This document shows, piece by piece, positions 3,039 to 40,325 of a DNA stretch of 43,206 nucleotides (position 1 is its first letter; each line of letters starts with the position of its first letter). The position numbers were made by a program, and so were the translations under genes. This DNA is from a virus: positions 1 through 43,206 of IMG/VR virus record IMGVR_UViG_3300025000_000194. One strand, given 5' to 3'. The notes under the pieces were generated by a model that made no database searches, was not told the origin of the DNA, and worked only from the letters and a program-made list of their open reading frames with translations.

Positions 3039-3488
3039 TTAATTAAAAAATATTTCAATCATTTCTACACCTTTTCTGCCCCAAACTTTGTCATCATGGG
3101 AGTAACCAAGAAAATCATACTTAAAAGGAACCAGCACATCTCCATTTGAGTCCAACATTCCCCAATATCCACATTTTTTAGCTCTAATTGTGTCATTATA
3201 GGAGTAACCAAGCCAATCGTATTGAAAAGGTACTAATATCTCCCCACTTGAGGAATCCAACATCCCCCAATATTCCCCTTTCTTAGCTTTAACCTTGCCC
3301 TTATAGGAATAATCAATATTATCATACTCAGTGGGTACTAATACATTCCCATTTGAGTGGTTGACCATTCCGTACTTTCCCATTTTTTTTACTCTAACCT
3401 TGCCATCGTAGGGGTTTTCAAACCAATCATATTGATTACGCCAATCCTGGTCGGCCTTAGTAGTGATTTGTTGTGAAGGGTGTTCCAT
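3039..3488 (-). CDS. WG-repeat protein (149 aa)
   Basis: Three copies of a unit of about 35 residues contain the WG/YG repeat signature: W/Y-G-M-V/L, then NG, VLVP and YD. This repeat family forms beta-rich domains of unclear function in many bacteria and phages. It opens with a WRNQYDW segment, like the two paralogues at 37085 and 38217. It is the first gene of the operon expressed from the promoter at 3581-3609 and has a leader of about 85 nt related to that of another operon. A role in binding host proteins is possible but not shown. Confidence 0.75.
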   Translation of the reverse strand: MEHPSQQITTKADQDWRNQYDWFENPYDGKVRVKKMGKYGMVNHSNGNVLVPTEYDNIDYSYKGKVKAKKGEYWGMLDSSSGEILVPFQYDWLGYSYNDTIRAKKCGYWGMLDSNGDVLVPFKYDFLGYSHDDKVWGRKGVEMIEIFFN

Positions 3489-4840: not shown

Positions 4841-6982
4841 TTGACAGAATCAAACACAACTCAATTAAGTATCAAACTTCACAAGTATCAGACGAGGATT
4901 TTTGAGAGTACTTCCAGATTCAAAGCATTAATAGCAGGAGTTCAGAGTGGTAAAACGGTTTGCGGGGCTTTGTGGTTGGGGGTTCGAGCTTTGAGTATGC
5001 AAAATAAGAACCATCTTATAGCTGCACCTACTTATAAAATTCTATCTCAATCAACATTGCCGAAATTCTTTGAGTTATGGCCAACCTTATTAAAATACTA
5101 CAAAAAACAGGATGGTGTTATTGATCTCCCAGGTGGTGGAAAAATATTTATCAGATCAACGGAGAACCCTGTAGGGCTTGAAGGGATGACACTGAAGTCA
5201 GCTTGGCTTGATGAGGCTGGTCAGATGAAGTCGATGGCTTGGATTGTTCTACAAGCTAGACTTGCAATCGAGATGGGCGAGGCGATGCTCACAACTACAC
5301 CTTATTCAATGAATTGGGTGAGGAATGATTTTGTTAAACAGTTTGAATCAGGTAATAAAAGTTATGATGTTATCTCGTTCTCTTCGATTGATTCTCCGTA
5401 CTTTCCAAAAGAGGAGTACGAACGCATGAAACAAACTTTAAGTGAAGAGATGTTTGACATGCGATACCGTGGAATATTTAGAAAGTTTTCAGGATTAGTT
5501 TATCGTGACTTTGATCGCAATGTGCACGTCATTGATGTTAAGCTTAAACCTGGTTGGGCACTCTATAGATCAATCGACTGGGGCTATAATGATCCGTTTT
5601 GTTGTTTGTGGATTGCTGTCGATTTCGATTCAAATGTTTATATTTATCGTGAACATTATGAGGCAGAGCAACCAACGGACTATCATGCTGAAATGATTAA
5701 GGCACTAAGCTTTGGTGAGAAATACAAATGGAGTTTAGGTGACTCAGCTAATCCCCAAATGATCAAAGACATGATGGTTAAGGGGATTGAAGTGCAGGCC
5801 TGTATCAAAGGGCCTGGTTCAATTCAAGCTGGTATTGAGCAAGTTAGAAACTTTTTGCAAGTTAGAGCGAATGGGAAACCTAGATTGTTTGTTGATAAGA
5901 ATTGTATCAACACAATCGATGAGTTTGAAAACTATCGGTATCCAGAAGACAGTAGAGATGATAAGAATAAAAGTGATCTCCCAGAGGATTATTTCAACCA
6001 CGCATGTTTTACAAAAGATGTAAAGGTTTTAACAGATAATGGGGAAGTACCTATATATAAGATAAAAAAGGGGGATAGAGTTAGAACTCCATTTGGAGTT
6101 TCTAAAGTATTAGAATGTGGAAAAACTGGGCATTCAAAAGTTTTTAGATTTGGTAATGGGGGGATTACAGGTAGTCATAAGATTTTTACACAAAGAGGGC
6201 TTGTTAGGTTTGATGCTTTGCGATATAATGATTATGTATGCAAATTAAATCAGAGAAAATCATTATTGATGGGATCAGTTTCAGAAGGTATCCACAATCG
6301 AAGAAGATGGAGCTTAGAAAGTATTTTATGTGTTCTCAGACGGCTAAGACAGGCTATAGAACAGAACGACTACATCGATATATTTGGGGGAAATATAATG
6401 GTGAAATTCCTAAGGGTTATCATATTCATCATAAAGATAATAATTTTCTTAATAATGAATTGGATAATTTGGAATTGGTATCAACTAAAGAACATGCTCA
6501 AAGACACTACGAGGAGATGCTTCCGATTGCTAAGAAAAACATTGAATATGCTAGAAAATTTGCAAGCATCTGGCATGGTACCGAAGAAGGTATTAAATTC
6601 CATAAAAGGATTGGCAAAATGGCTTGGGAAAATAAAAAATATTACTCAAAAATTTGTGAGATCTGTGGAGAAGAATTTAAAACACCATTTCCAGAAAGAA
6701 CAAAGTATTGTCATCGAGGAAAGAGTCGGAATAATTGCAGACAGGCAGCACTTAGGAGAAGAAGAAGATGTTTACAATCTTAAAACTGAGTATGGAATGT
6801 ATTTTGCAAATGGTATATTAGTTTCAAATTGTGACTGCACAAGGTACTTTATCCATAAGTTTGCAACACCGAGAAAAGACAGCATAAAAAAACAAATCAG
6901 TGAGCCTTTATCTCCACGTGAGATTAGAATTAAGAACAGTAAAAAGGGTACGAATAGATTTTCTGATATGTATAAGATGTAA
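4841..6982 (+). CDS. terL: Large terminase subunit interrupted by an intein
   Basis: DNA-packaging ATPase-nuclease. The 713-codon frame gives 388 residues of N-extein, a 275-residue intein and 50 residues of C-extein; spliced length is 438, normal for TerL. Walker A is AGVQSGKT (residues 32-39) and Walker B is AWLDEAG with D124-E125. The RNase-H-like nuclease domain starts at SIDWGYNDP (D246) and continues with LGDSANP. The intein splits NHA from CDCTRY, the last acidic motif of the nuclease. The start is a TTG at 4841, chosen because no ATG precedes the Walker A; it has no Shine-Dalgarno sequence. Packaging should need protein splicing. Confidence 0.93.
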   Translation: MTESNTTQLSIKLHKYQTRIFESTSRFKALIAGVQSGKTVCGALWLGVRALSMQNKNHLIAAPTYKILSQSTLPKFFELWPTLLKYYKKQDGVIDLPGGGKIFIRSTENPVGLEGMTLKSAWLDEAGQMKSMAWIVLQARLAIEMGEAMLTTTPYSMNWVRNDFVKQFESGNKSYDVISFSSIDSPYFPKEEYERMKQTLSEEMFDMRYRGIFRKFSGLVYRDFDRNVHVIDVKLKPGWALYRSIDWGYNDPFCCLWIAVDFDSNVYIYREHYEAEQPTDYHAEMIKALSFGEKYKWSLGDSANPQMIKDMMVKGIEVQACIKGPGSIQAGIEQVRNFLQVRANGKPRLFVDKNCINTIDEFENYRYPEDSRDDKNKSDLPEDYFNHACFTKDVKVLTDNGEVPIYKIKKGDRVRTPFGVSKVLECGKTGHSKVFRFGNGGITGSHKIFTQRGLVRFDALRYNDYVCKLNQRKSLLMGSVSEGIHNRRRWSLESILCVLRRLRQAIEQNDYIDIFGGNIMVKFLRVIIFIIKIIIFLIMNWIIWNWYQLKNMLKDTTRRCFRLLRKTLNMLENLQASGMVPKKVLNSIKGLAKWLGKIKNITQKFVRSVEKNLKHHFQKEQSIVIEERVGIIADRQHLGEEEDVYNLKTEYGMYFANGILVSNCDCTRYFIHKFATPRKDSIKKQISEPLSPREIRIKNSKKGTNRFSDMYKM
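6005..6829 (+). other. Intein in TerL
   Basis: The intein begins with Cys (TGT 6005) and ends with VSN before a +1 Cys (TGT 6830). Block A is CFTKDVKVLTDNGEV with KKGDRV; block B is TGSHKIFTQRG, with the expected T-x-x-H. Blocks F and G are EEDVYNLKTEYGMYF and ANGILVSN. The penultimate His is Ser, which active inteins tolerate. The middle (about 6240-6755) is open in this frame, but its translation is an odd basic and very hydrophobic sequence unlike any endonuclease. The recognisable endonuclease is encoded there in another frame. Confidence 0.88.
6238..6783 (+). CDS. HNH homing endonuclease nested out of frame in the intein
   Basis: A 181-residue frame, shifted by one base from TerL, lies wholly inside the intein coding region. 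Residues about 45-90 carry a full HNH_3-type motif: HRYIWGKYNGEIPKGYHIHH, then KDNNFLNNELDNLELVST and EHAQRH. A C-terminal zinc site follows (CEICGEEF, then C, C and a basic tail). Free-standing phage and group I intron endonucleases look like this. The ATG at 6238 is internal to the intein gene. Translation would need internal initiation or a frameshift. The enzyme probably cuts intein-free terL alleles and so spreads the element; that function is inferred from the family. Confidence 0.85.
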   Translation: MQIKSEKIIIDGISFRRYPQSKKMELRKYFMCSQTAKTGYRTERLHRYIWGKYNGEIPKGYHIHHKDNNFLNNELDNLELVSTKEHAQRHYEEMLPIAKKNIEYARKFASIWHGTEEGIKFHKRIGKMAWENKKYYSKICEICGEEFKTPFPERTKYCHRGKSRNNCRQAALRRRRRCLQS

Positions 6983-36061: not shown

Positions 36062-36661
36062 TTATTTTGAGTATTTTCCCATAATGTCAGTGATATACTT
36101 TACAACCTCAAGGTTGCCTCCTTTCTGCACCGCAAGTTGAAGAAGATTCCTGCCATTAACCAACGCCATCGGGTCAACTCCAAGTTCTTTTAAGTACTTT
36201 ACAACCTCAAGGTTGCCTCCTTCCTGCACCGCAAGATGAAGAAGATTCCTGCCATTAACCAACGCCATCGGGTCAATCCCAAGTTCCTTCAAGTACTTTA
36301 CAACCTCAAGGTTGCCTCCATCCTGAACCGCAAGATGAAGAAGATTCCAGCCATCAGCCAACGCCATCGGGTCAACTCCAAGTTCTTTCAAGTACTTTAC
36401 AACCTCAAGGTTGCCTCCTTTCTGCACCGCAAGATGAAGAAGATTCCAGCCATCAGCCAACGCCATCGGGTCAACTCCAAGTTCTTTTAAGTACTTTACA
36501 ACCTCAAGGTTGCCTCCATCCTGCACCGCAAGTTGAAGAAGATTCCTGCCATTAACCAACGCCATGGGGTCAATCCCAAGTTCCTTCAAGTACTTTACAA
36601 CCTCAAGGAGCACACCCCCAGTTTCTGCTAGCCAAGAATAAAATTCATTTTTAGATTTCAT
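36062..36661 (-). CDS. Ankyrin-repeat protein
   Basis: The 199-residue protein has five full 33-residue ankyrin units and a partial sixth. A unit reads GGNLEVVKYLKELG, DPMALxxGxNLL and LAVQ. Only a few positions vary: I/V, V/A, N/D, R/W, Q/H and D/K/E. Ankyrin repeats bind other proteins, and varying residues on a fixed frame is typical of binding surfaces. No membrane segment or enzymatic domain is attached. It may target a host protein. Confidence 0.8.
   Translation of the reverse strand: MKSKNEFYSWLAETGGVLLEVVKYLKELGIDPMALVNGRNLLQLAVQDGGNLEVVKYLKELGVDPMALADGWNLLHLAVQKGGNLEVVKYLKELGVDPMALADGWNLLHLAVQDGGNLEVVKYLKELGIDPMALVNGRNLLHLAVQEGGNLEVVKYLKELGVDPMALVNGRNLLQLAVQKGGNLEVVKYITDIMGKYSK
36062..36661 (-). 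repeat. 99-bp tandem repeats in the ankyrin gene
   Basis: Five units of 99 bp are almost identical at base level, and two-state differences are shuffled among them in different combinations. This is the pattern left by recombination or gene conversion between repeats. Confidence 0.85.
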
Positions 36662-37084: not shown

Positions 37085-37525
37085 TTAATTAAAAGATATT
37101 TCAAACTCCTTACCATCCTTCTTAGCCCAAGCCTTACCCTCCTGGGAGTTACCAATATAATCATACTCAAAGGGAACCAACACAGTCCCATTTAAAGAGT
37201 CTACCATACCGTACTTACCCCCTTTCCTAGCCCTAGCCTTACCCTCCTGAGAGTAACCAATCCAATCATACTCAAAGGGAACAAGTATATTCCCATTAGA
37301 AGAGTCTACCATACCGTACTTATCCCCTTTCTCAGCCCAAGCCTTACCCTCCTGGAAGTCACCAATATAATCATACTCAAAGGGAACCAACACAGTTCCA
37401 TTAGAAGAGTCTACCATACCGTACTTACCCCCCTTACTAGCCCTAGCCTTACCCTCCTGGGAGTTACCAATATTATCATATTGATCACGCCAATTAGTAG
37501 GGAGTTCCTTAATAGTGACTTTCAT
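37085..37525 (-). CDS. WG-repeat protein (146 aa)
   Basis: It starts MKVTIKELPTNWRDQYD and continues with WG units: KYGMVDSSNGTVLVPFEYD, then IG and QEGKAWAEKG. The units are nearly identical in DNA sequence. It shares its N-terminus with the 38217 protein and its fold with the 3039 protein, so all three are paralogues. Variable positions lie in the W/R, E/K and SSNG parts. Function unknown; many such repeats mediate protein binding. Confidence 0.75.
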   Translation of the reverse strand: MKVTIKELPTNWRDQYDNIGNSQEGKARASKGGKYGMVDSSNGTVLVPFEYDYIGDFQEGKAWAEKGDKYGMVDSSNGNILVPFEYDWIGYSQEGKARARKGGKYGMVDSLNGTVLVPFEYDYIGNSQEGKAWAKKDGKEFEISFN

Positions 37526-38216: not shown

Positions 38217-38450
38217 TTAATTAAAAGATATTTCAAATTTCTTCTTCCCCTTACTAACCCAAGCCTTACCCTCCTGGGATTTACCCATACTATCATACTC
38301 AATGGGAACCAAAACAGTCCCATTTGAAGAGTCTACAATACCCCACTTACCATCCTTTTCAACCCAAGACTTTCCCTCTAAATTGGTTACACAAATATAA
38401 TCATACTGATCTCTCCAGCTAGCAGGGAGTTCCTTAATAGTGACTTTCAT
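38217..38450 (-). CDS. Short WG-repeat protein (77 aa)
   Basis: It begins MKVTIKELPASWRDQYD, the same start as the 37085 protein, so I use ATG 38450 instead of an upstream ATG. It has one complete WG unit (KWGIVDSSNGTVLVP with IEYDSMGKSQEGKAW). It is a shortened paralogue or a unit donor for recombination. It lies between the nuclease gene and the SSB-like gene. Confidence 0.7.
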   Translation of the reverse strand: MKVTIKELPASWRDQYDYICVTNLEGKSWVEKDGKWGIVDSSNGTVLVPIEYDSMGKSQEGKAWVSKGKKKFEISFN

Positions 38451-38475
38451 AGTTTGCAGTTGGTTAAAAAATAAA

Positions 38476-39345
38476 TTACCAAGTAGTATAACCTTTTGTA
38501 GCTTCCGCAATTTTATTGAGTTCGGATTGAGAATATCCTAGTGATTGTCCTAATTTAGCAATAATTTTATTTTTATAGCGTGAATATTGTACTTGCCAAT
38601 CTCCAAGAACTGCCTTATTCGATCTAGCATTAGCAATTTGATATTTAGGTAGACCTTTCCAATCAATTTTATCAAGATCATATTTATAAACAAATTCACA
38701 AGGTGGTTCAATATCTTTTGAAATGTAATCATCATGAATGCGCTTAAATCTTCTAAATGTATCCATAAGATTAAATTCAATATCATGACATCTAAAAACT
38801 GATCCTTCGCGTTCCAAAACGAATTGATAAATACCATCAATCACGAATGGTTTATCTTGTTTAAAATGAACATAAAACAGAATCCCTTTATTAGCCTTAA
38901 TGCTTGTCATATAAAAGGCTAATTGTTTTAGATAAGATAGTTTGGGTTTACATTGTTCAATTTCTTGTTTTTGATAATTCCCGTAACTCGTTTTAACCTC
39001 AATCGGAGTTTCAACACCATCAATATTTAATATTCCATCCATGTATCCAGTAACCCTAATTCCCTCCCAGTCGATCTCAACTCTATGTTGATCTCCGTCT
39101 TTAGGTTCGACTAATATTCCCATGTCTCTAAACGAATCAATCACCCTAACCTCAACCATCTTTCTAACTTCAAGTGCGAATTTATCATGTGGCGAATCAG
39201 GATTAGTTTCTTTTTCTCCTTTCCACTTCCAAAAGATCTCTATTTGATCTGTTTCTGATTCGGTGCACCAGAATGAATCTTTAGGATGGTGTTCTTCTTT
39301 TTCTTTTAGAATGTGTTTTTGGATTTCAGTTACTAGATTAATCAT
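38476..39345 (-). CDS. PD-(D/E)XK nuclease, RecB/Cas4-like
   Basis: The 289-residue protein has the nuclease core: GYMDGILNIDGVETPIEVKT contains the D-x(n)-E-V-K triad, and YLKQLAFYM is the Q-x-x-x-Y motif of the RecB/Cas4 family. The enzyme class cuts ssDNA or DNA ends in recombination. It is the first gene downstream of the divergent promoter at 39386-39437, with a CTTCTA box. No Fe-S cysteine cluster is seen, so it is not Cas4 itself. It may process ends for recombination with the SSB-like protein. Confidence 0.8.
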   Translation of the reverse strand: MINLVTEIQKHILKEKEEHHPKDSFWCTESETDQIEIFWKWKGEKETNPDSPHDKFALEVRKMVEVRVIDSFRDMGILVEPKDGDQHRVEIDWEGIRVTGYMDGILNIDGVETPIEVKTSYGNYQKQEIEQCKPKLSYLKQLAFYMTSIKANKGILFYVHFKQDKPFVIDGIYQFVLEREGSVFRCHDIEFNLMDTFRRFKRIHDDYISKDIEPPCEFVYKYDLDKIDWKGLPKYQIANARSNKAVLGDWQVQYSRYKNKIIAKLGQSLGYSQSELNKIAEATKGYTTW

Positions 39346-39385
39346 ACTTAGAAGGTTTTTAGTTAGTAATTAAAAGATTATTTTT

Positions 39386-39437
39386 ATCATACACTAGAAA
39401 ATAAATACTTGCAAGTAAAATATAAAAAGAGTATAGT
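39386..39437. promoter_or_regulatory. Divergent promoters sharing one palindromic -35
   Basis: TTGCAA at 39409-39414 is its own complement and lies in the perfect palindrome TACTTGCAAGTA (39406-39417). To the right, a 17-bp spacer leads to TATAGT (39432-39437) for the LexA-like gene. To the left, a 17-bp spacer leads to TATGAT (39386-39391) for the nuclease operon. A dimeric repressor at the palindrome would shut both promoters at once. Confidence 0.65.
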
Positions 39438-39469
39438 AAAAAGTGTTCAATTATTCCCTGTTTTTTATT

Positions 39470-39697
39470 ATGATCTCTTTTAAGCAAAAACAGCTATTAG
39501 AATTTATACAATGGTCTATCAATAACCTAGATCGACCACCAACTTATAGAGAAATGGCAAATCATCTTGAAGTTTCATCAGACAATTCAATCTATAAACA
39601 TATTAAAAAGCTTGAACAATTAGGGTATATTTGTAGGGAATATGGGGATGGTGGCAGAGCACTTACTAAATCAATTCAAATTATTAAAATAACTTAA
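39470..39697 (+). CDS. LexA-type winged-helix regulator without protease
   Basis: It starts at ATG 39470 (MISFKQKQLLEFIQW), because transcription from the promoter begins near 39444; the ATG at 39443 would leave almost no leader. The 75-residue product matches the N-terminal DNA-binding domain of LexA: PPTYREMANHLEVSS, then IYKHIKKLEQLGYI and the wing. The protease domain is missing, so it cannot cleave itself. Its likely operator is the palindrome in the divergent promoter immediately upstream. Confidence 0.75.
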   Translation: MISFKQKQLLEFIQWSINNLDRPPTYREMANHLEVSSDNSIYKHIKKLEQLGYICREYGDGGRALTKSIQIIKIT

Positions 39698-39699
39698 CT

Positions 39700-40050
39700 A
39701 TGGATATAATCTTAATTCAGCAACATCTTACTAAACTTTACAATGAACTCAACCATGTAGACGAGAAAGGGAACCTTGATAATGTTTATACTAAAGAAGC
39801 AAACGCTAAAATCACGTTTAAATCACTTGAGAGGCAAGAGAAAAATGTTTTGGCACATTGTATCCTTGAAATAAAAGAAGGGGCGCAAAACTCAAAAGAA
39901 GCCAAAGCACGCACTACTGAAGAATGGCTCATGTTTTGTGATGGATTGAAAGATGCGGAATCTGAATTTCTAAAGGCCTCAGCGCTAGTTAAAGGGTTTG
40001 ACACTAAATTTGAAATACTTCGATCACTTAATAAGGATTATAAAATTTAA
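39700..40050 (+). CDS. Hypothetical phage protein (116 aa)
   Basis: Helical, charged protein with LTKLYNELNHVDEKGNL, FKSLERQEKNVLAHCI and GLKDAESEFLKASALV. It follows the LexA-like gene by 2 bp, so it belongs to the same transcript. The repeated heptad pattern suggests a dimer. Similar helical proteins occur near phage recombination or replication genes; function unknown. Confidence 0.6.
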   Translation: MDIILIQQHLTKLYNELNHVDEKGNLDNVYTKEANAKITFKSLERQEKNVLAHCILEIKEGAQNSKEAKARTTEEWLMFCDGLKDAESEFLKASALVKGFDTKFEILRSLNKDYKI

Positions 40051-40297: not shown

Positions 40298-40325
40298 TTG
40301 ACTTTTAGTTTTAAAAGAGTATGCT
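40298..40325 (+). promoter_or_regulatory. Promoter of the replication operon
   Basis: TTGACT at 40298-40303 and TATGCT at 40320-40325 are 16 bp apart. Transcription would start near 40332, ten bases before the structured RNA element. The rest of 40225-40297 holds no gene, only a GGAAATTCC inverted repeat at 40274-40282. Confidence 0.65.

Follow-up and report, generated by a model that had tools for sequence, protein, structure and literature searches.

Overlapping divergent promoters are already known, and the published examples that we found either share a -10 element or use two distinct, overlapping -35 elements. The bidirectional promoters of E. coli and Salmonella are pseudo-symmetric and accept RNA polymerase in either orientation, one at a time (PMC12825309, PMC10268837), much as would the promoter pair described here. 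They differ from it in that the -10 element is shared and the starts are typically 10-23 bp apart, whereas the pair in our window shares the -35 element and has predicted starts about 65 bp apart. In E. coli, there is no competition between the two directions at basal activity, and repression appears once one side has been activated (PMC12825309). In the UmuDAb/ddrR system of Acinetobacter, a single inverted repeat, the binding site of the repressor, is overlapped by the -35 elements of the two promoters, and co-repression of both genes has been proposed (PMC7273328). As in our case, a gene for a LexA/UmuD-like regulator is divergent from a partner gene (PMC7273328). However, the two -35 elements of UmuDAb/ddrR are different sequences (TTGACG and TTGAAT) instead of one self-complementary hexamer, its regulator has a peptidase-type domain, and the system belongs to a chromosomal DNA-damage response. 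The excerpted account of mycobacteriophage BPs (PMC4557955) describes another similar arrangement, in which the divergent phage promoters Prep and PR are accompanied by a small repressor and by an operator that is a palindrome of 12 bp. In these excerpts, the operator is placed inside PR, between its -10 and -35 elements, and serves a lysogeny switch, and a shared -35 element is not described.

The window, that is the whole stretch of DNA analysed, comes from an uncultivated phage; the record has a length of 43,206 bp and 35% GC. A divergent gap of 124 bp (80% AT) yielded two promoters in a consensus scan, TTGCAA-17-TATAGT on the plus strand (39409-39437) and TTGCAA-17-TATGAT on the minus strand (39414-39386). 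The self-complementary hexamer TTGCAA (39409..39414) is common to both as the predicted -35 element. The rightward -10 element TATAGT (39432..39437, plus strand) and the leftward -10 element TATGAT (39386..39391, minus strand) are each 17 bp away, within the 16-18 bp that define overlapping divergent promoters with a shared -35. The preliminary description had placed TTGCAA inside TACTTGCAAGTA, 17 bp from a "good" -10 on either side. Coordinates, sequences and spacers proved accurate. Both -10 elements match TATAAT at five of six positions and TTGCAA matches TTGACA at four of six on either strand, so that the full promoters reach 9/12. They lack a TGn extension and are acceptable rather than strong, as judged by a sigma70-type consensus that may not be that of the host. 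The distance from each -10 to the start codon of its presumed gene is 32-40 bp, with predicted transcription starts at about 39379 (minus strand) and about 39444 (plus strand), and the gap contains no further site of at least 9/12 upstream of either gene. We infer that the pair forms a pseudo-symmetric sigma70-type bidirectional promoter. It falls outside the bidirectional promoters of Warman and Grainger, which share a -10 element, as its -10 elements are separate and 40 bp apart; exclusive binding would be alike.

Neither promoter is notable alone, because sites at the 9/12 threshold are as frequent in shuffled DNA (7.9 expected) as in the surrounding 1.7-kb region (8 found); it is their coincidence that is rare. 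An exhaustive scan detected a single shared self-complementary -35 in the whole 43-kb window, compared with an average of 0.03 per shuffled window. When the 124-bp gap itself was shuffled, the arrangement arose in 0.2% of cases, and in 0.025% with 17/17 spacing. It was present in 0/34 other natural divergent gaps sampled.

The shared hexamer is contained in a perfect 12-bp palindrome, TACTTGCAAGTA (39406..39417), which is a candidate operator. Around the same centre (39411/39412), 39381-39395 and 39428-39442 form two outer arms that are complementary at 12/15 positions in addition to the inner 6/6, resulting in an imperfect dyad of 62 bp (39381..39442) that spans both promoters. This dyad had been missed before, and the site is more symmetric than originally claimed. 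The palindrome alone is weak evidence; some 12-bp palindrome occurs in 7.6% of gap shuffles. A palindrome with co-centred outer arms (at least 12/15) occurs in 0.02%, a measure that is not independent of the promoter rarity because the two -10 elements make up part of the outer symmetry. There is no second copy of TACTTGCAAGTA in the window, and LexA-like genes were not found near any of the 45 exact matches that other viral contigs contain to the palindrome combined with the rightward -10. Both observations weaken the idea of a widespread LexA-like operator, and a conserved operator consisting of palindrome and -10 was rejected on account of the latter. Another inverted repeat of 19 nt (39424-39442/39462-39480, 79% complementary) extends over the start codon of the LexA-like gene as well as the rightward -10 element and is a possible alternative operator.

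The rightward unit begins with a gene (39470..39697, plus strand) for a 75-aa protein. The proposal that this neighbour is LexA-like is borne out by a LexA DNA-binding domain (PF01726, 6.8e-12) and by an AlphaFold model that matches the LexA-DNA complexes 3jso/3jsp best in Foldseek (pLDDT 82 from a single sequence; 59-64 for the other four models). The match to TIGR00498 is confined to positions 6-62 of 203 and scores 40 bits, against a cut-off of 111. The N-terminal winged-helix DNA-binding domain of LexA repressors is present, while their C-terminal S24 self-cleaving peptidase/dimerisation domain is absent from this short protein. LexA DNA-binding domains in isolation dimerise poorly. The ATG at 39470 is favoured as start codon over a GTG at 39443, since transcription itself is predicted to start at that GTG (about 39444). 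As in autoregulated divergent operators of the UmuDAb/ddrR type, the regulator gene comes first on its side. It is followed by a gene for a 116-aa protein without Pfam or PHROG match (39700..40050, plus strand) and, past a gap of 406 bp, by genes for a DnaD-like loader and a primase/DnaB helicase (40457 and 41187). A replication side, as originally described, is present in the form of rightward helicase-loader-like and primase/helicase genes, but the 406-bp gap carries a promoter-like site of its own (TTGACT-16-TATGCT, 40298..40325, plus strand) upstream of the helicase-loader-like gene, so that the replication genes may not need the shared promoter. The preliminary description spoke of a nuclease on the other side, and the leftward unit does start with one, which is Cas4-like (38476..39345, minus strand). 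This 289-aa Cas4/RecB-like protein matches the phage Cas4-like exonuclease families phrog_1706 (5.5e-12) and phrog_1990 (2.3e-6), and GYMDG, EVK and QLAFY motifs were recognized by reading the sequence.

Several other features of the window were recorded. Shine-Dalgarno sites are not evident at start codons anywhere in the window; genes are instead preceded by leaders rich in AT (TTTTTAATTTTTATG) or in pyrimidines (AACCTTCTA-N-ATG). The missing sites suggest an unusual host from a lineage without Shine-Dalgarno-led initiation. The large terminase ORF (4841-6982) contains a Hint-type (intein-like) insertion, and an HNH-like ORF overlaps it in another frame (6238-6783). Two ORFs are strongly repetitive: the product of one (36062-36661) has ankyrin-like repeats (GGNLEVVKYLKELG...), and that of the other (175-1746) has hexapeptide-like GSSG.YAKI repeats. 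There are also three related WG-repeat-like proteins (KYGMVDSSNGTVLVPFEYD; 3039-3488, 37085-37525 and 38217-38510), two of which are encoded downstream of the nuclease gene, as part of the leftward unit. A window-specific extended -10 motif (GWGTATRNT) was over-represented (13 versus 5.6) and was set aside, as coding copies in the WG repeats inflate the count.

DNA similar to the 38.5-43 kb region was not found among annotated phages, and two queries of genome contigs returned no relatives. A search of viral contigs with the nuclease, the regulator and the helicase yielded relatives only in L002 and L003 (nuclease), in L004, an unrelated phage with a LexA-like ORF, and in L005, a contig of 5 kb that carries a helicase and is too short to include the corresponding gap. 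None of the four contains a divergent gap like that of the window. In L003, whose nuclease is 64% identical to that of the window, the genes upstream are co-directional, and the record contains no LexA-like gene. The nearest relative of the nuclease thus occurs without the shared -35 arrangement and without the regulator. Two protein matches (H21 and H22) were discarded: they look like host-type full-length LexA genes and have no shared -35 upstream.

The promoter geometry, on the other hand, recurs with other proteins. The pattern ATNATA-N17-TTGCAA-N17-TATNAT was scanned over 2.9 million viral contigs, and a single control spacing with identical boxes and composition but 13-bp spacers was scanned in parallel. 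The true spacing gave at least 120 sites, the control 63 in all. Divergent gaps, as determined by simple gene calling, accounted for 34 of 120 true sites among the matches listed and 2 of 63 control sites (p=2e-5), and for 26 of 94 unique true sites among the matches listed and 2 of 46 unique control sites (p=7e-4); these p-values overstate independence because members of one module family share kinship. Among the matches listed, 24 of the 94 unique true sites have a 50-59-aa RHH_3 protein nearby, as opposed to 0/46 for the control, and 15 of these 24 are also near a GIY-YIG, HNH or TnpB-type nuclease. No such nuclease is found near any of the 46 unique control sites. Further small proteins flanking pattern sites match RHH_5 or Arc models.

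Examples of such modules are RHH opposite TnpB (L117), GIY-YIG (L124) and HNH (L105). They resemble our locus in the shared TTGCAA -35, the 17/17 spacing, a small DNA-binding protein opposite a nuclease and nearby start codons. They differ in that the regulator is a ribbon-helix-helix protein, the nuclease is a selfish element and the -10 elements are TATAAT or close to it, while the window combines a LexA-type protein with a Cas4-like nuclease. With its winged-helix regulator and Cas4-like enzyme, the window does not belong to the RHH_3/selfish-nuclease modules and has the promoter geometry alone in common with them. A sample independent of the pattern was obtained by picking RHH_3 homologs by protein similarity. 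It contained the exact shared -35 site in Paraclostridium and Sarcina plasmids (L244 and L247), a form whose left -10 is weaker, read by eye (L246), and a near variant (L243). In L242, a Streptococcus phage in which RHH lies opposite an HNH endonuclease, the -35 elements are adjacent, not shared. The shared self-complementary -35, with its predicted divergent promoters, recurs in modules of phages and plasmids that include a small DNA-binding protein; our window represents a related instance in which the proteins are different.

Inspection of L054-L173 also revealed a recurring phage module in which RHH_3 is divergent from a nuclease (e.g., L117, L124, L105, L112, L072, L096 and L133). It consists of a 50-59-aa RHH_3 protein, a GIY-YIG, HNH or TnpB nuclease, a shared TTGCAA -35 and -10 elements that are TATAAT or close. 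Operator-like palindromes (AGTCCTTGGACT, ACTACAAGTAGT) overlap the promoter in these modules. No relevant literature was found on phage pairs of a small repressor and either TnpB or a homing endonuclease, which is limited evidence for novelty as most subscription journals were outside the coverage.

The most likely reading, to which we give about an even chance, is that of a promoter pair with a shared -35 that admits one polymerase at a time and is co-repressed by the LexA-like protein. TTGCAA would act as the -35 element for both -10 elements, 17 bp to either side. Sigma region 4 would take the hexamer in one orientation only, so that polymerase would occupy one promoter at a time; two polymerases at once on one shared -35 are implausible. 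Once made, the 39470 protein may bind as a dimer in or over the 12-bp palindrome and shut both promoters together, a block that the preliminary description had also proposed, which would limit the nuclease unit as well as its own. The outcome would be a node of co-repression with built-in mutual exclusion and not a bistable toggle. This reading is favoured by the exact and rare geometry, the dyad over the promoter pair, the LexA DNA-binding domain and the UmuDAb/ddrR precedent (PMC7273328). It gains further from the enrichment of the geometry in viral contigs and from the occurrence of the site in the protein-based sample (L244, L247). It is weakened by promoters of only 9/12, an assumed sigma factor, the single-copy palindrome, and the co-directional genes and missing LexA-like gene in L003. 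The pairing of recurrent cases elsewhere with RHH instead of LexA-type proteins and the poor dimerisation of isolated LexA domains weaken it further.

Co-repression has to be weighed against the possibility that the promoter pair is real and mutually exclusive while the LexA-like protein acts elsewhere, the palindrome merely reflecting the self-complementary -35. As TTGCAA is itself palindromic, only three extra base pairs per side need explaining, and the frequency of palindromes in shuffles, the single copy and the lack of LexA-like genes near matches elsewhere all fit. On the other hand, a small DNA-binding protein heading a divergent unit is a common autoregulatory layout, and the identical promoter geometry adjoins small DNA-binding proteins elsewhere. 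We consider action at another site unlikely, though a serious competitor. We rate it as rather improbable that chance produced the arrangement and that one or both promoters are unused. AT-rich intergenic DNA is rich in promoter-like hexamers, such sites are no more numerous here than in shuffles, and each scores 9/12 against a consensus that may not apply to the host. Chance is nevertheless hard to reconcile with the rarity of the shared arrangement in shuffles, above all at 17/17 spacing, and with a site that sits in the one gap of the region needing two divergent promoters, the 34 other natural divergent gaps sampled lacking the feature.

The preliminary description went further and saw a compact genetic switch between the nuclease/early operon and the replication side. 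As a toggle, this would make the two directions alternative states, with the winner set by polymerase competition and the LexA-like protein. The geometry would force exclusive occupancy, and activation of one direction of an E. coli bidirectional promoter represses the other (PMC12825309). Yet a repressor on the shared centre would block both sides, which is incompatible with a toggle, neither of the two first products is an evident repressor of the other, and a separate promoter-like site at 40298 precedes the replication genes. A toggle is very improbable. The switch was overstated, as the sequence does not imply one; co-repression is the better fit, since the closest regulated analogue, UmuDAb/ddrR, is proposed to be co-repressed (PMC7273328) and bidirectional promoters of E. 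coli showed no competition at basal activity (PMC12825309).

A single self-complementary -35 turns exclusion into geometry, and the shared element offers a clean system for studying polymerase exclusion. More interesting than the window itself are the counts in viral contigs, in which the design is over-represented and tied to gene pairs of a small repressor and a nuclease. The pattern is useful for spotting autoregulated selfish nucleases in unannotated phages. We tentatively propose, as a possibility that is less likely than not, that the TTGCAA -35 with 17/17 spacing is a selected and reused control part of phages and plasmids. It would combine a tiny autorepressor (RHH or LexA-type) with a DNA-cutting enzyme, and one operator and one -35 would hold both genes off together, thereby limiting the nuclease.
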